Assembly: GCF_001436215.1 (NCBI RefSeq)
Contig: NZ_AYYP01000070.1
Coordinates: 526-62,499 of the forward strand
Length of the DNA stretch: 61,974 bases
Origin: Ligilactobacillus agilis DSM 20509
GTDB lineage: Bacteria; Bacillota; Bacilli; Lactobacillales; Lactobacillaceae
Direction: 5' to 3'
This document shows positions 5,644 to 30,393 of this stretch, one piece after another (the stretch's first letter is position 1; each line of letters begins with the position of its first letter). The notes under the pieces are model-generated. The model was not told the DNA's origin, did no database searches, and saw only the letters and a list, made by a program, of their open reading frames with translations. Position numbers and translations under genes: made by a program.

Positions 5644-6679
5644 AGAATTTTAAGCTAGCAATTTGGTCTTTAAAATTAACTAACTCAGGACTGAGAAGAT
5701 AAGGAACAGTTTTTAAGTCGGAAATGGTCCGGCAACCTAATATAACCATTAGGCGTTTGAGTTGATCTTTGAGGTTAGTAATCTCAGTAACCAAAGCATC
5801 ATCGCCTTGACGTAAGAGAACGTGTAGGAAATGGCCGGCTAATCCGACGTTATCAGCTCCTAAAACTAGGCACTTAATAATATCAAGTGCAGTTCTGATT
5901 CCGCCTGTAGCGGTAAAGGAGAAGTCGGCTTGGAAGGTTTGGGCAGCTAAGAGACTTTCGGCCGTCGTGAGACTAAGTTCGTTAAAGTAACCCAGCTCTT
6001 TATTTTCACGGCGTTCATTTTCAATTGCAACAAAGTCCGTTCCCCCAGCGCCGCCTAAATCTACGTACTTAATGCCAGCTTCTTTTAACAGCATCAAACT
6101 ACGGGGAGTCATTCCTGCGCCCACCTCTTTAACTAAGAGGGGCACGTCTAGGTGGCTGTTAATTTCTTTGAGGTTGGCTAGCCAGTAGAAACTTTGGTCA
6201 CCTTCAGGCATGACCAACTCTTGGGCCAAGTTAACGTGTAATTCCAAAGCATTAGCATTAATCATCTTGACGGCGCGCTTGGCATTAGTTAAATTATGGT
6301 GAGCGCCAAGGTTAGCTAAAATAAAACCAGCAGGGTTATTTTGGCGGACAACCTCAAAGGTTGAGCTTAGGCTAGGAAGTTTTAAAGCAATACTTTGGGA
6401 ACCAACTGCCATTGGAATTTGAGTTTTAGCAGCGACCTTAGCTAGGCGGGCATTAATCTTACCCGTTTGCTCGCTGCCTCCGGTCATAGCGTTGATAAAG
6501 AAGGGGACAGCAATTTTTTGGTCCAAGAAAGTCGCAGTTAAATCGACATCGGCCAAGGCCAGTTCGGGTAGGTTAGTTGCCAACAATTTAACTTGATCAA
6601 GCTTGGTTTGAGCTTGAGGGCGGTAGAATTTTTCGGCAATAAAAACGTGCTCATCTTTTCGGTGTGCTTGTTTATCCAT
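5642..6679 (-). CDS. fni: Type 2 isopentenyl-diphosphate delta-isomerase (FMN-dependent)
   Basis: A 345-residue cytosolic flavoenzyme that interconverts isopentenyl and dimethylallyl diphosphate, the last step supplied by this operon. It is the type 2 (FMN, NADPH, Mg) enzyme and unrelated to the Nudix type 1 enzyme. Signatures are PFFINAMTGGSEQTGKIN, PMAVGSQSIAL, the glycine-rich phosphate loop VDLGGAGGTDFVAIENERR and FTATGGIRTALDIIKCLVLGA in a TIM barrel. It is the last gene of the mvk-mvaD-mvaK2-fni operon, 11 bases after mvaK2, and ends at a bidirectional terminator. Confidence 0.96.
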   Translation of the reverse strand: MDKQAHRKDEHVFIAEKFYRPQAQTKLDQVKLLATNLPELALADVDLTATFLDQKIAVPFFINAMTGGSEQTGKINARLAKVAAKTQIPMAVGSQSIALKLPSLSSTFEVVRQNNPAGFILANLGAHHNLTNAKRAVKMINANALELHVNLAQELVMPEGDQSFYWLANLKEINSHLDVPLLVKEVGAGMTPRSLMLLKEAGIKYVDLGGAGGTDFVAIENERRENKELGYFNELSLTTAESLLAAQTFQADFSFTATGGIRTALDIIKCLVLGADNVGLAGHFLHVLLRQGDDALVTEITNLKDQLKRLMVILGCRTISDLKTVPYLLSPELVNFKDQIASLKF

Positions 6680-6690
6680 AAAAATCCCCC

Positions 6691-7758
6691 TTATTCTTTA
6701 TATACGTTAAAGGCAAGTGGTTCTATTCCCGCAGCTTGCCAACGATTGATTAAGGTTGAAACTTGGTTGGTATCTGTTAGCAAGGCAATCCCACAGTCCC
6801 CGCCTCCAGCTCCAGAAGTTTTAGCGGCACCGCCAAGGTCAGTGGCAGTTTCAATCAAGGTCTTAAGCAAGGGGGTTTCGATATTTAAGCCACTAAAACT
6901 TGCCAGCTTGACCAAGAGGTCGCGGTTAACCTTGACTTGAGTCAAAATTTCTGCAGGCGAGTTGGTTTTAAAGCCGGCAATCATGTTAGTTAAGCAGCTT
7001 TTACTTGCTTTTAAAAATTCTTGGTACTTAGCTTGTTTTTCTGCTTTACTAAGGCCAACGGCGTCTACTAGGTGAGAAGTAGATGCAGGAGATCCGGTCC
7101 AACCAATGAGTAAGGTCAAATCTTTAGGCGGGGTCAGCTCTTCAATACTTAAATCAGGCCAATCCATAGCTAGTAATTGTTTCAGAGAGTATTTTTGTCT
7201 AGCTAAAATGAGCCAGTCACGGTTTAGGGAGTGGTAGGCTAACCAGCCACCATAAACGCTAGCAGCAACGTCGCCTAAGGAACCATTACCTTGAACCTCA
7301 AAGTGGGCAATCGCTGCTAATTTAAACAAAATTTCCTTGGTAGGTTTTAAATCATAGTAGGCACAGAGGGCTTTGACTGTAGCCACCGTTACTGCGGCTG
7401 ATGAGCCTAGGCCGTACTTTTTACCATCGGGACTATCTAACTGACTATCGATTTTGAGGTGGTAGCAGTCTAACACTTTACCAAGACTGCGGGCATATTC
7501 TTCCGTCAATTTGATTGCGGCTAAAATATAATGGAAGGGGTTATCACGGTTATCAAAAACAAGTTCTTGTCCTTCGCGCCGCCAGTAGATTGAGTTTTCT
7601 TCATACTGCTTGGATACAATCGAACCAAGAGAGGCGCTTTTTTCGATTGACACGTAAACAAATTGATCCAAAGCCACTAAGACAGCTGGATAGCCGTTTT
7701 CGACGACGGCATATTCACCAGCAATATAAAGTTTTCCTGGTGCTTTGACTTTAATCAC
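6691..7758 (-). CDS. mvaK2: Phosphomevalonate kinase
   Basis: A 355-residue GHMP kinase that converts 5-phosphomevalonate to 5-diphosphomevalonate with ATP. The N-terminal motif is KAPGKLYIAGEYAVVENGYPA, the ATP loop is KKYGLGSSAAVTVATVKA and the C-terminal GHMP motif is KTSGAGGGDCGIALL. The GEYAV motif and length match the Gram-positive MvaK2 type rather than mevalonate kinase. The start is GTG at 7758, preceded by AGGAAGG. It lies 24 bases after mvaD and 11 before fni. Confidence 0.96.
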   Translation of the reverse strand: MIKVKAPGKLYIAGEYAVVENGYPAVLVALDQFVYVSIEKSASLGSIVSKQYEENSIYWRREGQELVFDNRDNPFHYILAAIKLTEEYARSLGKVLDCYHLKIDSQLDSPDGKKYGLGSSAAVTVATVKALCAYYDLKPTKEILFKLAAIAHFEVQGNGSLGDVAASVYGGWLAYHSLNRDWLILARQKYSLKQLLAMDWPDLSIEELTPPKDLTLLIGWTGSPASTSHLVDAVGLSKAEKQAKYQEFLKASKSCLTNMIAGFKTNSPAEILTQVKVNRDLLVKLASFSGLNIETPLLKTLIETATDLGGAAKTSGAGGGDCGIALLTDTNQVSTLINRWQAAGIEPLAFNVYKE

Positions 7759-22942: not shown

Positions 22943-22971
22943 CAAATAGTTAAGAAAGAGAGTTGTTGATT

Positions 22972-24424
22972 GTGAATGAGTTAGGACAAAGGCAACACTA
23001 TATCTCTTGGCCCGTAATTGCCATGGTAGGGTTTGTGACAATTATTGGTTTCGATGATATTTTGTATCCCTTGCAAAACCAAGGGTTATCAGTTGTTTTC
23101 TCCTGGATTTTTATGGTGTTCTTCTTTGTTATCCCTTATGAAATGACGGTTGCTCACCTTGGTTCGACTTTTAACGGACACCAAGAAGGGGGGCTGGCTT
23201 CGTGGGTTAGAAGAAGTACCCATAGTGATGCTTTAGGTTATTGGACCGCCTGGATGTATTGGGCGGCTTGCCTACCTTACATTGTCGACGTGGCTAATTC
23301 AACGATTGTGTCGTATAGTTGGTTGATTTTAGGCAATAATCACCTTGATCAGTATATGTCTAGTTTTTGGTTTGGGGTTTGGACCTTCGTAATTATTCTA
23401 GCCTTTATTTTATTGGAGAATTTTTATAAAAAGTCACTAGAGCTAATGGCAACCATTGGTGGGGTGGCAATGTTTTTAATGACCGTCTTATTCGTGGTCA
23501 TGACCGCTTGGACTTTATTAACTGGGGGAAAGATTGCTACCCATCCTTTTAACTTAGAGGCGTTTATCCCTAAGTTTTCGACCTCGTATTTTGCTACCAC
23601 GGGACTATTGATGTTTGCGGTTTGTGGGGCTGAGTTAGTTGCTCCTTACTTGACCAAAATGAGAAATCCCAACCGTGATTTTCGCAAGGCAATGTGGTTG
23701 ATTGCACTGATGACGGCATTTTTAACCGTCTTTGGAACTTTTTCGTTAGCAATCTTTTTTAATGCCAATGATTTACCACATGACTTAAAGATGAACGGGT
23801 CTTATTATGCCTTCCAGCTTCTAGGACAGCAAATGGGCTTAGGCAAAGGCTTGATGTACCTATTTGCCCTAGTACAAGCAATCTACATGATGGCTCAGTT
23901 GGCAATTTTTCTAGATTCAACTAGTTGGGTTTTTGCAGCGGATACGGCTGCTAAGTTTATGCCTAAATGGATGAGGAAGCGTAATCGTAATGGGCGACCT
24001 ATCCATTCTTATGTATTAACTACGGGGTTAAGTTTATTCCTACTTATTAATGAGTGGGACCCTACCGGATATTAACGCTGTATTCAACTGGTTATTAAAT
24101 TTAAATGGAATTGTGTTTCCTTTCAAGAATTGTTGGTTGTTTTTAGCTTTTATAGCGGTTAGATACCAACAAGATCGCTTTACGTCCGAATTCGTCTATA
24201 TCAAAAATCGGATGGGGGCATTAGCGATGGGAAGCTGGTGTTTTCTGTTCTCCCTAGTCTGTGCCGTGATGGGCTTCTTGCCCCAAGATGTTACCTTTGG
24301 GACTAAGGCCTGGGATCATCAGTTATTGATGAACTTCTTATCTGTCGCAGTTTTATTTGGTGCCGGCATGATTATGCCCCTCTTAGCGCGCTTGGAAAAG
24401 CGTAAAGCGAGTGTCCAGGAGTAA
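22972..24424 (+). pseudogene. APC-family amino-acid permease, frameshifted
   Basis: Two reading frames together encode one membrane transporter of about 484 residues with some twelve hydrophobic helices. It belongs to the amino acid-polyamine-organocation superfamily and begins MNELGQRQHYISWPVIAMVGF; the exact substrate is not visible. The first frame runs into a stop at 24073-24075 shortly after LLINEW, and the second carries on in the adjacent frame with LPDINAVFNWLLNLNGIVFPF. Removing one G from the GGG at 24056-24058 would join them as INEWTLPDINAVF. So there is a one-base insertion in a G run, real or a sequencing error. GTG 22972 is the best start, nine bases after AAAGAGAG. Confidence 0.85.
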
Positions 24425-24445
24425 GATATACAAATTTCAGCAATA

Positions 24446-24499
24446 AATACCTTTCAAGTGTATAGATGCAATCATCCTATACTTGGGAGGTATTTTTTA
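24446..24499 (+). terminator. Strong terminator after the permease gene
   Basis: AATACCT, AAGT and TATAG on the left pair with CTATA, ACTT and AGGTATT on the right around a CAAT loop, followed by TTTTTT. Confidence 0.93.
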
Positions 24500-24509
24500 T
24501 GAGGTTATG

Positions 24510-24798
24510 CTAAAAATTAGCTAGTAAAAAGACAAACTTTTGCCAATTAATGCGACCGTCATTCAAAAAATTACGAATAGTTCTAGTAGTGAAAGCGGGA
24601 GCTTCTTTAGCACGATACAAAGATTGACGTGCAAAGATAGCAGTAAGCAACCACTTGATAAACTCTGTCGGGTTAATTGGAGTACGTCGTTTGAAATTAA
24701 CCTGGCGAATAATTTTACCTATACCAAATTTGCTTGAAAAATGTAGCGATTGAAAAAAATGATTCGTTATTTTCTTGAGAATAATTTATACTGGACAT
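24510..24798 (-). pseudogene. IS4-type transposase remnant, N-terminal part, frameshifted
   Basis: Read on the minus strand, an ATG at 24798 opens MSSINYSQENNESFFSIATF, then the frame shifts near 24745 (one extra base after TTCAAG) and continues as KFGIGKIIRQVNFKRRTPIN and TEFIKWLLTAIFARQSLYRA, ending in INWQKFVFLLAN before a stop at 24510. I recognise this as the start of an IS4-family transposase common in lactobacilli. The DDE catalytic part is wholly missing. So this is a short relic of an insertion sequence at the left edge of the metal-ATPase island. The recognition rests on memory of the family, not a search. Confidence 0.75.
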
Positions 24799-24799
24799 A

Positions 24800-24864
24800 G
24801 CGTAAGGACCCCTTTGTTTTTTATTTGTGCATTTAAATTATAACGCAGGTGTCCTTGCGTTTTT
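24800..24864. repeat. Inverted repeat and terminator-like structure beside the transposase relic
   Basis: GCGTAAGGACCCCT (24800-24813) and AGGTGTCCTTGCG (24847-24859) pair with two interruptions, followed by TTTTT on the plus strand. It lies immediately upstream of the transposase ATG. It may block outside transcription into the element or be part of its end. Confidence 0.6.
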
Positions 24865-24879
24865 CTATTTTTTGGCAAA

Positions 24880-24920
24880 AAAGCATGAAATAGCGGGAAG
24901 TATCCACTATTTCATGCTTT
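24880..24920. repeat. 14-bp perfect inverted repeat
   Basis: AAAGCATGAAATAG (24880-24893) and CTATTTCATGCTTT (24907-24920) are perfect complements over a 13-base loop. Read on the minus strand the stem is followed by six T, so it is a good terminator in that direction, although no intact minus-strand gene ends there. It could be the end of a lost gene next to the island. Confidence 0.7.
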
Positions 24921-24966
24921 CAAGTTTCAGTTTGAAACAAGCTAGACATTCTAGTATTTTTAAAAC

Positions 24967-25008
24967 TTGATATAAATCAATTATTATATTTCTATGCTCG
25001 GTTATACT
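24967..25008 (+). promoter_or_regulatory. FNR-type box and class II promoter of the metal ATPase gene
   Basis: The palindrome TTGATATAAATCAA (24967-24980) is a perfect TTGAT-N4-ATCAA site of the Crp/Fnr family. Its centre is about 41.5 bp before the start point predicted from the -10 hexamer TATACT (25003-25008), the classical class II activation position. A TATAAT further on (25012-25017) is an alternative -10. The AAAGGAGG ribosome-binding site follows. The identical arrangement recurs at 26897-26938. Confidence 0.8.
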
Positions 25009-25033
25009 GGATATAATAAAGGAGGTAGAAATC

Positions 25034-26890
25034 ATGCAAAAATGGTTATTACGTTATCGGAATTGGTTGACAGCAATAACTGGTGTTCTTATTATACTTG
25101 CTTTTTCATCCAAATGGGTTTTTAGTAGTGAGCAGGGTTCAGCTTATCTACTGTTTGTAGCTTCATTAGTTGGCGGTTTACCAATTTTTGTTCAAGCCTA
25201 TCAAGCTCTTAGAATTAAGGTAATTAGCATCGATCTCTTAGTAACTCTTGCTATTTTAGGAGCATTTGTTATTAAAGAGTTTGAAGAATCAGCTATTGTA
25301 GCTTTTCTCTTCTTATTTGGTGCATACTTAGAACAAAGAACATTAGCCAAGACACGTTCTGCGATTAAGAATCTCGTGGAGATGGTACCAGAGACTACTT
25401 TTCGTAAACTACACAATGGTGACTTTGAAGAGGTGTCAGTTGAGGAAGTTAATGAAGAAGATATTCTTTTAGTAAAAACTGGTGGAAAGATCCCAGTTGA
25501 CGGTGAAGTGATATTTGGCTCTGGTACTGCAAATGAAGCAAGTATTACGGGCGAATCTATTCCAGTCTCTAAAGGTTTAAGAGATAAAGTTTTTGCTGGT
25601 ACCATTCTCGAAAATGGCACTATACAAATACGTACTGAGAAGATTGGGGAAGATACAACTTTTGGGAAAATTATTGAATTAGTAGAAGAAGCACAGGACA
25701 GCAAGTCAAAAGCTGAGAGATTTATTGACCAATTTTCAAAATACTATACTCCTTCAGTTTTAGTGTTAGCGATTATTGTTTGGCTTATTAGCCGCAATAT
25801 TGAGTTAGCCGTTACTATTTTGGTTCTTGGATGTCCTGGTGCACTGGTTATTGGCGTACCAGTTTCAAATGTGTCAGGGATTGGAAATGGCGCACGACAT
25901 GGTATTTTATTTAAGGGTAGTGATGTCATTACAAACTTTAGTAAAGTTGATACAATGTTATTTGATAAAACAGGAACATTAACTTATGGTAACCCTCAGG
26001 TTGCACAGACAATCTATTATAGCAGTGATAGGAGTCTTGCTGAGAGCTTACTGGCTAGTGTTGAGAGAGAATCAAATCATCCGCTCGCGAAAGCAATTGT
26101 GAACCATTACTATTACTCAGGTTCTGTAGTAGAGGTGATTGACTCAACAGAGGTCGTTCAAGGTGGGGGAGTTGTTGCTCGTATTCAAAATCACCAAGTT
26201 CTCGTTGGGAACTCTTATTTGATGAATCAATATAATATTCCTTTCACTAACCAGATGAAGAGCGACATAGCAGGGATGGAAGCAGAAGGGAATTCAATTG
26301 TCCTAACTGCTATTGATGGACAAATAGCTCTTGTTGTAGGGATTCGCGACCAGATTAGACAAGGAGTCAAGGAGGATTTAGAGACGCTTAAGAATATGGG
26401 AGTAAAAAATCTCATTCTATTATCTGGAGATAATCAAGGTACAGTTGATTTAGTTACTAATCAGTTAGGCTTAACCGAGGCTTATGGTCATCTACTACCA
26501 GAAGACAAGGCAGAATTTGTGAGAAAACGTCAGGCAAGTGGAGAAATAGTAGCATTTGTCGGAGATGGTATTAATGATAGCCCATCATTGGCCTTAGCAG
26601 ATATTGGAATTGCCATGGGAAACGGTACAGATGTTGCCATTGAAACTTCAAATGTTGTTTTGATGAATTCGGATTTTCACAGAATCCCTCATGCGATTGG
26701 ATTGGCTAAAGCCACACGACGTAATATGATTGAAAATATCTTCATTGCATTGCTAGTCGTAGTAGTTCTTCTTATCAGCGTTCTCTCAAGTTCGTGGATG
26801 AATATGGCAATTGGCATGTTTATTCATGAAGGTAGCATTCTCGTAGTTATTTTGAATGCTATGAGGCTTTTAAAATATAAAAGAAAATAG
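25034..26890 (+). CDS. Heavy-metal translocating P1B-type ATPase with a CPG motif
   Basis: A 618-residue integral membrane pump expected to export a divalent or monovalent metal ion using ATP. No N-terminal metal-binding domain is present; the chain starts with paired helices. The actuator domain has TGES (172-175), the phosphorylation site is DKTGTLT (D311), the nucleotide domain has ESNHPLAKAI, and the hinge is VGDGINDSPSLALADIGIAM. The metal-site triplet of helix 6 is C267-P-G, not the usual CPC, CPH or SPC, while the last helix carries IHEGSILVVILNAMRLL, resembling the HEG motif of the P1B-4 group. Specificity is therefore open. The gene is more AT-rich than the surrounding core genes and follows an FNR-type box. 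Confidence 0.9.
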   Translation: MQKWLLRYRNWLTAITGVLIILAFSSKWVFSSEQGSAYLLFVASLVGGLPIFVQAYQALRIKVISIDLLVTLAILGAFVIKEFEESAIVAFLFLFGAYLEQRTLAKTRSAIKNLVEMVPETTFRKLHNGDFEEVSVEEVNEEDILLVKTGGKIPVDGEVIFGSGTANEASITGESIPVSKGLRDKVFAGTILENGTIQIRTEKIGEDTTFGKIIELVEEAQDSKSKAERFIDQFSKYYTPSVLVLAIIVWLISRNIELAVTILVLGCPGALVIGVPVSNVSGIGNGARHGILFKGSDVITNFSKVDTMLFDKTGTLTYGNPQVAQTIYYSSDRSLAESLLASVERESNHPLAKAIVNHYYYSGSVVEVIDSTEVVQGGGVVARIQNHQVLVGNSYLMNQYNIPFTNQMKSDIAGMEAEGNSIVLTAIDGQIALVVGIRDQIRQGVKEDLETLKNMGVKNLILLSGDNQGTVDLVTNQLGLTEAYGHLLPEDKAEFVRKRQASGEIVAFVGDGINDSPSLALADIGIAMGNGTDVAIETSNVVLMNSDFHRIPHAIGLAKATRRNMIENIFIALLVVVVLLISVLSSSWMNMAIGMFIHEGSILVVILNAMRLLKYKRK

Positions 26891-26896
26891 AGATTC

Positions 26897-26938
26897 TTGA
26901 TAGAAATCAATTTTTTACTCTAAATATCGTACTATACT
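26897..26938 (+). promoter_or_regulatory. FNR-type box and class II promoter of the HMA-regulator operon
   Basis: TTGATAGAAATCAA (26897-26910) is followed 22 bp later by TATACT (26933-26938), exactly the spacing seen before the ATPase gene. It lies six bases after the ATPase stop codon and 29 bp of DNA separate the -10 from the next start. It should make the downstream regulator gene autoregulated. Confidence 0.8.
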
Positions 26939-26966
26939 AAAAATATAATAAGGAAAGGAAGTAAAG

Positions 26967-27197
26967 ATGATGAAAAAAGCTATACTACAGCTTGAAACAC
27001 TGGCTTGTCCAACATGTATGCAAAAAATTGAGGGAGCCATTAAAAGTGTAACAGGTGTCGATAAGGAAAGTGTCAAAGTTCTATTCAATGCCAGTAAGGC
27101 AAAAGTAAATTTTGACGCTAGTATGACAAACATTAATGAAATTGTGAAGGCAGTGCAAGCAATTGGCTATGATGTCCTAAAAGCATCAGAAAAATAA
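26967..27197 (+). CDS. Stand-alone HMA (heavy-metal-associated) domain protein
   Basis: A 76-residue cytosolic protein with the ferredoxin-like HMA fold of CopZ-type metallochaperones: KKAILQLETLACPTCMQKIEGAIKSV, with the metal ligands C14 and C17 in CPTC, then VKVLFNASKAKVNFDAS and IVKAVQAIGYDV. It probably carries metal to, or senses metal for, the ATPase encoded just upstream, which lacks its own HMA domain. The usual MxCxxC is here ACPTC. It heads the second transcription unit, 15 bases before the next gene. The metal cannot be read from the motif; copper is common but not certain. Confidence 0.88.
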   Translation: MMKKAILQLETLACPTCMQKIEGAIKSVTGVDKESVKVLFNASKAKVNFDASMTNINEIVKAVQAIGYDVLKASEK

Positions 27198-27212
27198 TAG
27201 GAGAAAGTTACA

Positions 27213-27491
27213 ATGTTAAAACAATTTTTTGAAGCAAACGATGAGATGCTTGATCTATATACAAATGCTATTACAAAAGCTCATGGGAAAAATCATCCAG
27301 AAGTCTTTGACGTTCGCAAAGTTTATGAAACAATTCAACATAAAATTAGGGATAATAATTTAGACCTATCAAATGAATTTTCAGAACTAAGAGCTCTTAC
27401 AAAAGATTATACAATTCCAGATGATGCTTGTGAGACATTTACTAAAACTTATCAGCTATTAAAACAATTTGATGAATTATCTCAAGAATAG
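27213..27491 (+). CDS. Small helical protein of unknown function (Ric-like?)
   Basis: A 92-residue, acidic, helical, soluble protein. It has no signal peptide or membrane helix. The segments TNAITKAHGKNHPEVFDVRKVYETI and YTIPDDACETFTKTYQLLKQFDEL resemble, from memory, the N-terminal part of streptococcal iron-sulfur cluster repair proteins of the Ric/ScdA kind, but the hemerythrin-like di-iron domain of those proteins is absent. If that likeness holds it could bind metal through its histidines. AGGAGAAAG precedes the ATG. It sits between the HMA protein and the FNR-like regulator, so a role in metal or redox response is inferred from context only. Confidence 0.6.
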   Translation: MLKQFFEANDEMLDLYTNAITKAHGKNHPEVFDVRKVYETIQHKIRDNNLDLSNEFSELRALTKDYTIPDDACETFTKTYQLLKQFDELSQE

Positions 27492-27518
27492 GTTTTATCA
27501 ATTAGAAGGAGGCTATCC

Positions 27519-28172
27519 ATGGTTCAACATATTTGTGTGACACTTGTACCATTATTTCATCATCTGTCAGAAGATGAACAGATTAAAATTAATAGATTGG
27601 CACAACACAAACAATTTAAAAAAAATGAAATTGTTTTTAGACCAGGAGATGAAAATCTAGACATCGTGGCTCTCGGAAGTATGAAAGTATTCCAACTGTC
27701 TACAAATGGTGATGAACAGCTTTTACGGGTCGTTGAACCAGGTGGCTATGAGGGTGAGAATCAGTTGTTCGGTATTAAAAATGAATCTCTTTTTGGTAAA
27801 ACTCTTGAAACAACTGAAATTTGTAGATTAAGTAAACAAGCTTTTGATCAAGTAATGCTTAGGAATCCACAAATAGCTCTTAAATTATTTGAATTAAGTG
27901 CGCAAAAGATGATTCAAGTAGAGAAACAGGCCCATATTTTATCTATGGAGCGTGTTGAGGAACGGTTAGCGAACTACCTCTTGGATCTGTCAAAAGTAGC
28001 GAACGATTATCGGTTCAGTTTACCTATGAAGATGATTGATATCGCGCGATATATAGGAACTACCCCTGAAACTCTTTCTAGAAAATTTAGATTTCTTGAG
28101 GATAATAGATTGATAAAACGTTCAGGTAGAAGAATAATTATTCTTAACAGAGATGGCTTAATTGATTTATGA
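27519..28172 (+). CDS. Crp/Fnr-family transcriptional regulator (FLP-like)
   Basis: A 217-residue DNA-binding protein with an N-terminal cyclic-nucleotide-like beta barrel (FKKNEIVFRPGDENLDIVALG), a long dimer helix (MIQVEKQAHILSMERVEERL) and a C-terminal winged helix. The recognition helix TPETLSRKFRFLE has E184-x-x-S187-R188, the residues by which FNR reads TTGAT. Two perfect TTGAT-N4-ATCAA boxes precede the linked units, so these are its likely targets. There are only two cysteines (C6, C102), too few for an FNR iron-sulfur cluster, as in the FLP proteins of lactic acid bacteria that use a thiol switch. Start ATG follows AAGGAGG. Confidence 0.9.
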   Translation: MVQHICVTLVPLFHHLSEDEQIKINRLAQHKQFKKNEIVFRPGDENLDIVALGSMKVFQLSTNGDEQLLRVVEPGGYEGENQLFGIKNESLFGKTLETTEICRLSKQAFDQVMLRNPQIALKLFELSAQKMIQVEKQAHILSMERVEERLANYLLDLSKVANDYRFSLPMKMIDIARYIGTTPETLSRKFRFLEDNRLIKRSGRRIIILNRDGLIDL

Positions 28173-28180
28173 GGTGAAAA

Positions 28181-28810
28181 ATGTCGTTTAACAAATTAAA
28201 GGAATATCTACCCTATCGAGGAGAAAAATATATTAAGCCGGAAAAGGCTGGTAATTATCGCCAGTATATGATGGATTTAAGGGACCTAGCTCGACAGGCC
28301 CGGGATGAATTCAGTTTAATCAGTAAATCTTTTGAAGACAGGGTAAAGCCATTTAAAGCAGAGCGTGTTAGTCAATGGATGAATCAATCTCAGCTATGTC
28401 GTCCACATTTTTGGTGTTATTTCCGATTGCCTTCCGATGATTTGGATGATTCAGCATTGGCTATTCGTCTTTATGGGGAATCTGATAATTTTGGAATTTC
28501 CGTTGAGGTTAGTTTTGTAGAAAGAAGGAGGTCTGAAAACAGTTTAGAGAAACAAAATAAAGTTTTGAATCTTCTTCCTTTTGGAGCTATGTATTATTTT
28601 GTACAAAAAAATGGTATAAGTTTCAAAATGGATGCAACAGAAGAAAATCGAAAGAATTTACTAAAACAGGTCAAATCAGGTGAGGTTCGTAAGGTCTTGG
28701 TTAAACAGGATATTCCAATTGAGACTGACCACTCATTAGAACGGTTAATTGATGATCTATTAAAAAGTTTTGATGAATTACTGCCATTTTATAAGGAAAC
28801 AAAGAAATAA
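28181..28810 (+). CDS. Conserved protein of unknown function, 209 residues
   Basis: A soluble protein of 209 residues rich in charged amino acids, with no signal peptide, membrane helix or motif I can tie to an activity. It begins FNKLKEYLPYRGEKYIKPEKAGNY, has an aromatic-rich middle (RPHFWCYFRLPSDD, GESDNFGISVEVSF) and ends in acidic helices. It starts nine bases after the regulator stop with GAGGTG in front, so it is the last gene of the FNR-controlled operon. Composition is AT-rich like its neighbours. It may be the effector or partner in the metal response, but nothing in the sequence says which. Confidence 0.75.
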   Translation: MSFNKLKEYLPYRGEKYIKPEKAGNYRQYMMDLRDLARQARDEFSLISKSFEDRVKPFKAERVSQWMNQSQLCRPHFWCYFRLPSDDLDDSALAIRLYGESDNFGISVEVSFVERRRSENSLEKQNKVLNLLPFGAMYYFVQKNGISFKMDATEENRKNLLKQVKSGEVRKVLVKQDIPIETDHSLERLIDDLLKSFDELLPFYKETKK

Positions 28811-28919
28811 ACTAAAGGATAGGTAGAAGTAACGTAAGCACTCCATAATGAGACGTATGTAAATATTTTCCTAATCCCCCTATACTACTAACATGGACAT
28901 AGTATAGGAGGATTTTTTC

Positions 28920-29108
28920 ATGGAAAAGCAAGAGATTGTTAAGTTTAAATTGACACTAAAACGGAAGCCAAAAGCTAAAAACAGAACCAATAAGTTGAGA
29001 CTAGCTACTGAAATAAAGCTAGCCAAAGTGAAAATTTCGCTATATCACGGTGCTGATGTCGAACTTATGAATGATATCTGGGAGTTGGTGAAGAAGCATG
29101 CTGGTTAA
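28920..29108 (+). CDS. tnpA: IS66 accessory protein, first ORF
   Basis: A 62-residue basic protein matching by place and character the first small ORF of IS66 elements (MEKQEIVKFKLTLKRKPKAK). In intact elements it is one of two accessory proteins needed with the large transposase. It is shorter than most IS66 TnpA proteins and may itself be eroded. AGGAGG precedes the ATG, and the gene overlaps the next by 11 bases, as usual in this family. It is probably without function here because the transposase is broken. Confidence 0.65.
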   Translation: MEKQEIVKFKLTLKRKPKAKNRTNKLRLATEIKLAKVKISLYHGADVELMNDIWELVKKHAG

Positions 29109-29445
29109 TTATCATGCCCCTAGGCATGTGTACATTGTTTGTGGTAACACTGATTTACGTAAAGGAATTGATACGCTGGCAATCTTAATTGCCGATAACT
29201 TCGGCTTAGATCTTTACGATGACTCCTTATTTTTATTTTGTGGACGGAGAAATGATAGGTTTAAGGCTCTTTACTGGGACGGTGAAGGGTTCATACTACT
29301 TTACAAGCGGTTTGATAACGGACGTTTAACTTGGCCACGAAATAGTGAGGAGGTTAAGGAGTTGGATAGTCAGCAACTTAATCTACTTTTAAAAGGATTA
29401 AATCCTTTACCACAGCCAAAAGTTCATCGTGCCAAAAAAGGTTGA
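29098..29445 (+). CDS. tnpB: IS66 accessory protein TnpB
   Basis: A 115-residue protein of the IS66 Orf2 (TnpB) family. The family signature VYIVCGNTDLRKGIDTLAILI opens it and LFLFCGRRNDRFKALYWDGEGFILLYKRFDNGRLTWP follows. The length is normal, so this ORF is intact. Despite the shared symbol it has nothing to do with the RNA-guided TnpB of IS605 elements found later in the window. It overlaps both neighbours by a few bases. Its partner transposase is truncated. Confidence 0.88.
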   Translation: MLVNYHAPRHVYIVCGNTDLRKGIDTLAILIADNFGLDLYDDSLFLFCGRRNDRFKALYWDGEGFILLYKRFDNGRLTWPRNSEEVKELDSQQLNLLLKGLNPLPQPKVHRAKKG

Positions 29446-29815
29446 TAAGTTTTACGACTTTCTAGATACTATCCTTAATCCAAGTGGTAAATTGAAAAAA
29501 GCAATCGGTTATGCCAAGAAATTCCGCACTAGATTGGAAAAGATTTATGAAATTGGTGAATTACCGTTATCAAATAACCCAGTTGAACAAGCAATCAGAC
29601 CAGCAACTCTAGTCCGCAAAAATTCACTATTTGCGACAACGATAGCTGGAGCAAAAGCTAACGCAATCTGGTACAGCTTAATCCAAACAGCTATAGATGT
29701 CTCTAAATATCTCAACTACATCTTTTCATTACTAGAACAGCGAAAAGAGGTTGATGTTGAGGCTTATTTGCCATGGAATTCCGAAGCCAAAGAAAGTTGC
29801 GCCGTTGCAAACTAA
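29429..29815 (+). pseudogene. IS66 transposase TnpC, C-terminal fragment
   Basis: Only 128 codons remain of a transposase that normally has about 500. What is left carries ELPLSNNPVEQAIRPATLVRKN, which contains the last glutamate of the DDE triad, then FATTIAGAKANAIWYSLIQTA and the C-terminal LPWN. Both catalytic aspartates and the N-terminal DNA-binding part are missing. The deletion joins the fragment directly to the end of the tnpB accessory gene, with a 17-base overlap. Confidence 0.88.
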
Positions 29816-29856
29816 AAGGCCGTAAATTCACAATTTGTGATTTTACGGCCTTTTTT
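29815..29856 (+). terminator. Terminator at the right end of the IS66 relic
   Basis: AAAGGCCGTAAA-TTCACAA pairs with TTGTGA-TTTTACGGCCTTT, followed by T residues. It lies inside the element just before its right inverted repeat. Confidence 0.92.
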
Positions 29857-29919
29857 ACCAATAACGTCCAATTATGGAGTGATTATGTTTTTTCCCAGCC
29901 TCTTTTTAGATAACGTTTT

Positions 29920-30393
29920 TTAGCGGACAACGATTACTGAACAAGGAGCGTTTTGCGCCATTGCGCTTGCTTGGGAACCGATAAAGATTTGTTTACGGCC
30001 AGTGACCGGTTTGGTTTTAGAGCCACAGACTAATAAATCGGGCTGAAACTCTGGTAAAATATCTTCGATAATGACGGTTGAAGGCTTACCCTCACCTGTA
30101 AAAGCGAAAACTTCTTTGACGCCAAAACTTCTAGCCTTATTGACGTAACGGGCTAGGTCGTCACTGACTTGATTGCGCCGCTTTTTCATGATATCTGGAC
30201 TTAAGGTATCAAAGATGTTGAAGTCTTGAACTTCTAAGATAGAAACAATTCCTAGCGGAGCACCTAAACGTTTAGCGGTAGTAACGGCATAGTTAAATGC
30301 GCGGACTGAAGAGTTTGAATCATCTTCGTCGACAGCAACTAGAATTTTGGTAAAACTACGTGGTGTGATTTCGAAATTAATACGATCTGACAT
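29920..30393 (-). CDS. UspA-family universal stress protein
   Basis: A 157-residue cytosolic protein of the universal stress family, typically a dimer and often ATP-binding. It begins with the beta strand KILVAVDEDDSNSSVRAFNYA and ends with DLLVCGSKTKPVTGRKQIFIGSQASAMAQNAPCSVIVVR. The glycine and serine positions of the ATP-binding loop (G-S...G...S) are roughly present. It lies 30 bases after mntH on the same strand, a pairing often seen in lactobacilli, so it is probably cotranscribed with the manganese transporter and linked to its use. AAAGGGGAAAG precedes the ATG. Confidence 0.92.
   Translation of the reverse strand: MSDRINFEITPRSFTKILVAVDEDDSNSSVRAFNYAVTTAKRLGAPLGIVSILEVQDFNIFDTLSPDIMKKRRNQVSDDLARYVNKARSFGVKEVFAFTGEGKPSTVIIEDILPEFQPDLLVCGSKTKPVTGRKQIFIGSQASAMAQNAPCSVIVVR

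Follow-up and report, generated by a model that had tools for sequence, protein, structure and literature searches.

The organisation of a five-gene cassette, which carries a P1B-type metal ATPase and the Crp/Fnr-family regulator Flp, was analysed in Ligilactobacillus agilis DSM 20509. The window, that is the whole stretch of 61,974 nucleotides taken from contig NZ_AYYP01000070.1, had been given a preliminary description from its letters alone, in which two identical class II promoters were proposed to serve a metal ATPase and its FNR-like activator. All five genes named there were found on the forward strand, in the order ATPase, HMA protein, OrfY, Flp and P5. The features are given below (aa, amino acids; TM, transmembrane helix).

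24967 to 24980, forward strand: Flp box 1, TTGATATAAATCAA, a perfect TTGAT-N4-ATCAA (pattern search)
25003 to 25008, forward strand: -10 hexamer TATACT of promoter 1, 22 bp past box 1
25034 to 26890, forward strand: P1B-type metal ATPase, 618 aa, with HEGSI in TM8 (TIGR01525, 544 bits; Pfam; PDB alignments)
25832 to 25840, forward strand: codons of the CPG motif (C267-P268-G269) in TM6 (motif reading)
26897 to 26910, forward strand: Flp box 2, TTGATAGAAATCAA, a perfect TTGAT-N4-ATCAA (pattern search)
26933 to 26938, forward strand: -10 hexamer TATACT of promoter 2, 22 bp past box 2
26967 to 27197, forward strand: HMA-domain protein, 76 aa, with CPTC, a putative metallochaperone (PF00403, 1.2e-13)
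27213 to 27491, forward strand: OrfY, a four-helix protein of 92 aa, RIC/ScdA-like in parts (TIGR03652, 2.5e-11, 43.8 bits against a cut-off of 204.7)
27519 to 28172, forward strand: Flp, Crp/Fnr-family regulator, 217 aa (PF00027 and PF13545 above cut-off; C6 and C102; helix E184-T-L-S187-R188)
28181 to 28810, forward strand: P5, an accessory protein of 209 aa (weak, below-cut-off match to the HI_0552 family)

Promoters of the window and their conservation in relatives

The two perfect palindromes, each 22 bp before TATACT, had been located exactly to the base. With this distance between box and -10 hexamer, the box centres would lie at about -41.5 from the predicted start points, which agrees with the class II position proposed earlier. 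The two boxes were the only exact ones in the whole window, against 0.098 expected under a first-order Markov model of the window; for boxes with TATA(A/C)T at 22 bp the same model expects 0.00007 against the two observed. The two 22-bp spacers carry the same base at just 8 of 22 positions, so the promoters are not one recently duplicated stretch, and chance or block duplication as their source was ruled out. The genome of the window contains 13 exact boxes compared to 6 for a reversed-pattern control. The pattern TTGAY-N4-RTCAA with TAnnnT at 22 bp gave three matches in this genome, namely each of the two promoters plus a reading of box 1 on the opposite strand, and none for the control; there was thus no sign of a large Flp regulon in this genome, as only the two cassette boxes, that opposite-strand reading aside, have TAnnnT at 22 bp. 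The strict box-spacing pattern was present in 78 of 151 genomes and control matches in 7, several of the listed matches resembling coding sequence.

The gene set, the boxes and the 22-bp spacing, whose conservation had been suggested as a check, were searched for in 86 loci and were found to be kept in distant relatives. These loci (single loci are given below by L numbers) comprised the window, 80 named genome loci with a related Flp (the best 80 of 574 confirmed relatives) and 5 plasmid loci. A box with no more than one mismatch was present before the ATPase gene in 63 of the 72 loci having this gene, and before the HMA gene in 71 of 77. Random 310-bp stretches from the same loci, used as control, showed such a box in 173 of 1720 cases, and this control is conservative as it includes real boxes. 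For the spacing, only boxes within one mismatch and -10 hexamers within two were scored, which brought the ATPase promoters from 63 to 61 and the HMA promoters from 71 to 67. The spacing was 22 bp in 60 of the scorable ATPase promoters and in 61 of the scorable HMA promoters; the exceptions of both sets together were five promoters at 21 bp and single ones at 20 and 27 bp.

The loci were also dereplicated to one per Flp cluster (<80% identity), giving 42 clusters and 61 promoters for a sequence logo. The logo revealed TTGAY-N4-RTCAA, two well conserved bases, a T-rich stretch and the -10 hexamer at exactly 22 bp, the thirteen positions 23-35 holding at most 0.22 bit each. TAnnnT was found at offset 22 in 57 of the 61 promoters, and no other offset between 10 and 28 had it in more than 7 of 61. 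The length of the spacer is kept and its sequence is lost, a pattern that protein-polymerase geometry would select. It could be argued that box and spacing arose by chance, or by common descent of one DNA block without selection. The window block is indeed nearly identical in several species, and such close copies carry little weight for this reason, but among the dereplicated loci all 30 scorable ATPase promoters and 25 of the 28 scorable HMA promoters still had 22 bp, with the sequence similarity of the spacer mostly gone, which renders this explanation scarcely credible.

A -35 element with at least 4 of 6 positions matching TTGACA at 16-18 bp was found in none of 58 promoters, where shuffled spacers expect 3.3. 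The lack of a consensus -35 element fits dependence on an activator, without proving it, and from their sequence the cassette promoters look activator-dependent and of class II type. The wiring was also seen in rearranged loci. A plasmid of E. faecium and one of L. salivarius have the order Dps, Flp, HMA, ATPase, and each gene there has a box (at most one mismatch) at 22 bp. In L153 the CPG ATPase lies on a different contig from Flp, still with an exact box at 22 bp. The HMA box falls within the 3' end of the ATPase frame in 8 of the 10 loci L056-L065 (Aeriscardovia, Lactobacillus, Bifidobacterium, Galliscardovia and others).

An upstream gene with a one-mismatch Flp box 22 bp before TACAAT was observed in four Lactococcus/Streptococcus loci (L047 3171-3749, L048 2964-3542, L049 3174-3752 and L051 2950-3528). 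In the two of these tested, L047 and L051, it belongs to the uracil-DNA-glycosylase superfamily, which hints at DNA repair in the Flp regulon as judged from the sequence.

The regulator, the pump and their partner proteins

Flp combines a cNMP-binding fold with a Crp-type helix-turn-helix domain (PF00027, PF13545). Its recognition helix aligns with the PDB chains named 'FNR type regulator', which are its best PDB matches and which we take to be from A. fischeri. The recognition residues E184-x-x-S187-R188, read correctly in the preliminary description, were present in 86 of 86 Flps. C102 was likewise present in all 86, and C6 in 85 of the 85 having that position; in the remaining one, L050 of Ligilactobacillus equi, the flp frame (6501-7153) is interrupted. 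Exactly two cysteines were counted in 75 of the 86 proteins, including the window's Flp with C6 and C102 only, and H4, next to the conserved C6, occurs in 78 of 86. By its fold, its two cysteines (one close to the N-terminus, the other about 100 residues further along) and this helix, together with the TTGAT-N4-ATCAA boxes to which binding is predicted, the regulator is assigned from sequence to the already known Flp family of L. casei FLP and L. lactis FlpA-FlpB. The boxes of FLP and FlpA are presumably of FNR type, and the two cysteines of L. casei FLP are, as we assume, at positions 5 and 112; its DNA binding is reportedly under dithiol-disulfide control.

The earlier designation as FNR-like was appropriate for the Crp/Fnr-type helix but not for the E. 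coli FNR type, since the window's Flp, with two cysteines only, lacks the four-cysteine 4Fe-4S ligand set of that protein; a Flp with the E. coli FNR ligands was ruled out by this count, although a cluster could be bound through other residues. The idea of an oxygen-sensing iron-sulfur protein acting in the manner of FNR agrees with the PDB matches and the recognition helix. PMC5039431 describes an oxygen response of S. suis FlpS, and cites a report in which L. lactis FlpA carries an oxygen-labile iron-sulfur cluster bound by residues other than cysteine. Against the four cluster ligands of FNR, however, stand the exactly two cysteines of most relatives, and this mode of sensing is considered very unlikely. 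That source describes Gram-positive FNR-like proteins as often having two cysteines, with a debated mode of activation (PMC5039431).

The metal ATPase of the preliminary description is of P1B type, with the correction that it has no HMA domain of its own and reads CPG in TM6. P1B-4 pumps have no N-terminal metal-binding domain and carry a TM8 motif of the HEG(G/S)T type. The window ATPase gave no HMA hit by Pfam, as P1B-4 membership requires. Its TM8 reads HEGSI, with HE-x-SI in 18 of 18 aligned CPG pumps, compared to HEGST in 7qbz, which we take to be the P1B-4 pump CoaT; the N-A-x-R-L that follows HEGS in 7qbz is also found in the window ATPase. TM6 of 7qbz reads SPC, and in this position the window pump has CPG instead. 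The pump is therefore P1B-4-like in sequence yet lacks the SPC of that class. Export of Fe(II) at high iron is attributed to P1B-4 pumps in PMC10654040.

Among the Flp-side ATPases, that of the window included, the CPG motif was read in all 70 with a readable frame of more than 450 aa (70 of 72; L059, in pieces, and L063, cut, were unreadable). It was also read in 49 of 49 ATPase-side loci, which represent 48 distinct places (L135 being the same as L180) and of which the 8 without an exact DKTGTLT string were read separately. The two sets may share species, several loci are close copies, and the examined loci are a subset of the 157 genomes with the ATPase. The TM6 motifs of metal pumps listed in PMC9045314 are CPC, CPH, SPC, TPC, CPS and APC. 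Among the other P1B pumps of the window's genome, L126 and L127 have CPC, and the motif pattern matched nothing in L128. An ATPase match (E <= 1e-140, ATPase alignment search) was obtained in 157 of 251 genomes of Lactobacillaceae. In accordance with this family, the HMA promoter of one of its genomes (L006) is identical to that of L. delbrueckii L060, and the HMA promoter of another to that of Latilactobacillus graminis L121. Taking a loose threshold of E <= 0.001 for Flp, which also lets in remote Crp/Fnr relatives, 155 genomes had both genes and 79 had neither; 15 had just Flp and 2 just the ATPase, one of these two genomes being 65% complete. In Sharpea porci (L067 4049-6190) the ATPase and the HMA protein are fused in one frame of 713 aa; they are separate in S. 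azabuensis (L069).

The HMA protein carries CP[ST]C in 77 of 77 cases, window included. Its best NCBIfam models are copper chaperones, but with 47 bits against the CopZ cut-off of 91, and this bears on a different cargo or direction of the pump, i.e. export of Cu(I) or supply of zinc to the cell. HMA chaperones often serve copper, and an L. lactis flpA flpB mutant is said to be zinc-depleted. The CPG of TM6 and the HExSI of TM8 are, on the other hand, different from pumps L126 and L127 of the same genome, which read CPC, and the score of the HMA protein is far under the CopZ cut-off; such a cargo or direction appears rather unlikely.

The small helical protein noted earlier, OrfY, is present, and the description is to be corrected in that it resembles iron-sulfur-repair proteins. 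Its profile matched ScdA (9r7j) at 2.3e-7, and its model (pLDDT 97.3) matched the same structure, S. aureus RIC, with TMq 0.74 and E 2.1e-3. The match to the RIC/ScdA family model is partial and below cut-off, and does not extend over the full length. Compared to RIC/ScdA/YtfE, the likeness thus lies in the ScdA helices, by profile and by model, and the difference in a length of just 92 aa. Near Flp, an OrfY-like gene was found in 36 of the 86 loci, a DpsA-like gene in 33 and neither in 17 by this test. The DpsA-like profile reached 1.6e-68 or better for both 1zs3 (L. lactis DpsA) and 1zuj, and other Dps/ferritin chains followed from 9.3e-14. In L117 (L. cremoris) Flp follows the HMA gene and a gene matching Lactococcus 1zuj almost residue for residue. 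The crystallised Lactococcus protein therefore derives from such a locus, and, as L117 is part of the DpsA-like profile, the scores of 1zs3 and 1zuj are not independent. The P5 model, of moderate quality (pLDDT 79.2), resembled the fold of B. subtilis 2a8e only weakly (E 2.4e-3, TMq 0.50), and no function was assigned on this basis.

The partners and the residues of Flp also bear on the signal, for which direct metal sensing is the main rival of redox control. Here C6, C102 and the often conserved H4 would bind the exported metal, and redox would have no role. The presence of H4 beside C6 in most Flps, the nature of the targets (a metal pump and an HMA protein) and the common occurrence of self-regulated pump-plus-sensor sets in metal resistance are in accordance with it. 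The two cysteines, however, would also suit a dithiol switch, the Dps-like and RIC-like partners point toward oxidative damage, and a regulatory switch of L. casei FLP was reportedly published by Gostick in 1998. Direct metal sensing is accordingly judged unlikely.

Exchange of the cassette and known systems

The cassette lies in a DNA block with defined edges, adjoined by the remnant of an insertion sequence.

24931 to 28833, forward strand: exchanged DNA block (left edge at 24931-24966 depending on the relative; right edge at 28831-28833 in 7 of the 9 closest loci)
28826 to 29894, forward strand: IS66 remnant adjoining the block (imperfect terminal repeats; complete TnpB-like frame; only the C-terminal end of the large transposase)

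The left edge falls just 5' of box 1, and the right edge just 3' of P5 at the start of the IS66 remnant. By blastn, the block of about 3.9 kb showed 96.7-98.5% identity to six loci (L042, L043, L044, L045, L046 and L050) from Streptococcus 'caviae', E. cecorum (two), S. alactolyticus, L. hayakitensis and L. equi. The identity to three Lactococcus species (L047-L049) was 92.8-93.4%, the alignments with L047 and L048 ending at 28562. The cassette is thus a small module common to Ligilactobacillus, Streptococcus and Enterococcus in nearly unchanged form. Related cassettes were also found in Bifidobacteriaceae (Actinomycetota) and in Olsenella bins.

The 3' end of P5 also occurs on Lactococcus plasmids beside a second Crp/Fnr gene. 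This second gene, convergent and past the P5 sequence, was located in the Lactococcus plasmids L035 (7280-7951) and L036 (7275-7946) and in Streptococcus 'caviae' L042 (7838-8509); in the two plasmids it is flanked by DUF1971 and class Ib ribonucleotide reductase genes. Just left of the block in the window, a near-perfect inverted repeat with 17-nt arms and a 7-nt loop (24880-24920) is possibly a terminator. Farther left, a transporter-like gene at 22963-24424 is split into the overlapping frames 22963-24075 and 24050-24424 and is probably frameshifted; on reading of its sequence it may be an amino-acid permease. No known RNA element was matched by Rfam in 24400-30000.

Like the cassette, the operons of L. 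casei FLP and L. lactis FlpA/FlpB (Gostick 1998, 1999 and Scott 2000, as cited in PMC5039431, PMC3547956 and PMC4628341) have a Crp/Fnr-family regulator with two cysteines; the middle gene differs, being RIC-like in the window and Dps-like in theirs. Work on the Lactococcus flp operons is said to have partly anticipated the link between redox and metals. In the literature searched, which did not extend to the original FLP/FlpA papers, neither a CPG ATPase linked to Flp, nor a pair of promoters with the 22-bp spacing, nor an occurrence in Actinomycetota was found described. The Flp switch family, studied in lactic acid bacteria since the 1990s, is already known, and it is the pump type and the promoter wiring for which no description was found. 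With the P1B-4 ATPases (PfeT, PmtA, FrvA; CoaT) the pump shares the lack of an HMA domain in the ATPase and, by comparison with 7qbz, HEGS in TM8; it differs by CPG in place of SPC in TM6 and by a Flp box in place of PerR/Fur control. The PerR regulon of B. subtilis, according to PMC9993123, places the mini-ferritin MrgA and the iron pump PfeT under one peroxide-responsive regulator. If Flp is redox-driven, the cassette would by analogy follow the same logic of mini-ferritin and pump. PerR is a metal-bound repressor, whereas Flp should be an activator, and its cassette is compact, exchanged and probably self-regulated.

Proposed mechanism and its biological meaning

The preferred reading, to which a probability of roughly 0.6 is given, is that the cassette is an exchanged module in which Flp is predicted to activate its own operon and a P1B-4-like pump. 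The notion of a cassette carrying its own activator held, by comparison with the relatives, for the Crp/Fnr-type regulator and the two class II-type promoters; binding by Flp, activation, the redox signal, the cargo and the direction of transport are what we infer. Active Flp, most likely with a C6-C102 disulfide as reported for L. casei FLP, would bind both boxes as a dimer, and at about -41.5 this dimer would replace the missing -35 element and recruit RNA polymerase. Promoter 1 would drive the CPG-type P1B ATPase. Promoter 2 would transcribe the HMA gene, the middle gene (RIC-like or Dps-like) and flp, and thereby place Flp under positive feedback. The pump would receive a transition metal from the HMA protein, and the middle gene product would guard DNA or iron centres. 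The cargo, by analogy to PerR-MrgA-PfeT of Bacillus, would most likely be a divalent metal ion from the group Fe, Co and Zn that turns harmful when the cell meets peroxide or thiol stress.

Several observations weigh against this reading. Five HMA promoters (three of Enterococcus, two of B. thermophilum) are spaced 21 bp. The box was found at 22 bp in 36 of 41 ATPase-side loci (script scoring; four have two mismatches; L141, scored 24 bp by the script, has on reading a one-mismatch box at 22 bp) and in 2 of eight further ones. The loose Flp threshold affects the co-occurrence, and an ATPase is missing from the stretch covered in 14 of the 86 Flp loci, some of which end at contig edges. As TM6 reads CPG and not SPC, the cargo assigned by analogy is weak, and the di-iron ligands of RIC proteins are perhaps not all present in OrfY. 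According to PMC5039431, the C129S replacement in S. suis FlpS left arcABC expression unchanged, which argues against a simple cysteine switch; the same paper presents Flp of streptococci as a regulator of arginine deiminase and not of metals. Redox control through C6-C102 should accordingly be regarded as a prediction. In PMC3547956, a 2013 study of L. lactis, the published FlpA motif was absent upstream of flpB, and a different motif lay about 200 bp upstream of both flp genes. The sites described here precede the HMA and ATPase genes, so these findings may not conflict with them.

Beyond the module itself, it is tentatively suggested, at somewhat less than even odds, that the CPG ATPases form an undescribed P1B subgroup which, with a dedicated CP[ST]C chaperone and Flp, makes up one regulated efflux-and-protection system in Bacillota and Actinomycetota, its wiring kept despite reordering and plasmid moves. 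If this is true, many Flps, a family known from streptococci for arginine deiminase control, would be first and foremost regulators of this metal system. The Flp match in 155 of the 157 genomes with the CPG-type pump in the window's family suggests that Flp-type regulators are tied to one unusual pump. The cargo of a P1B pump with CPG should inform how such pumps choose their metals, and the cassette gives exact predicted sites for Flp.

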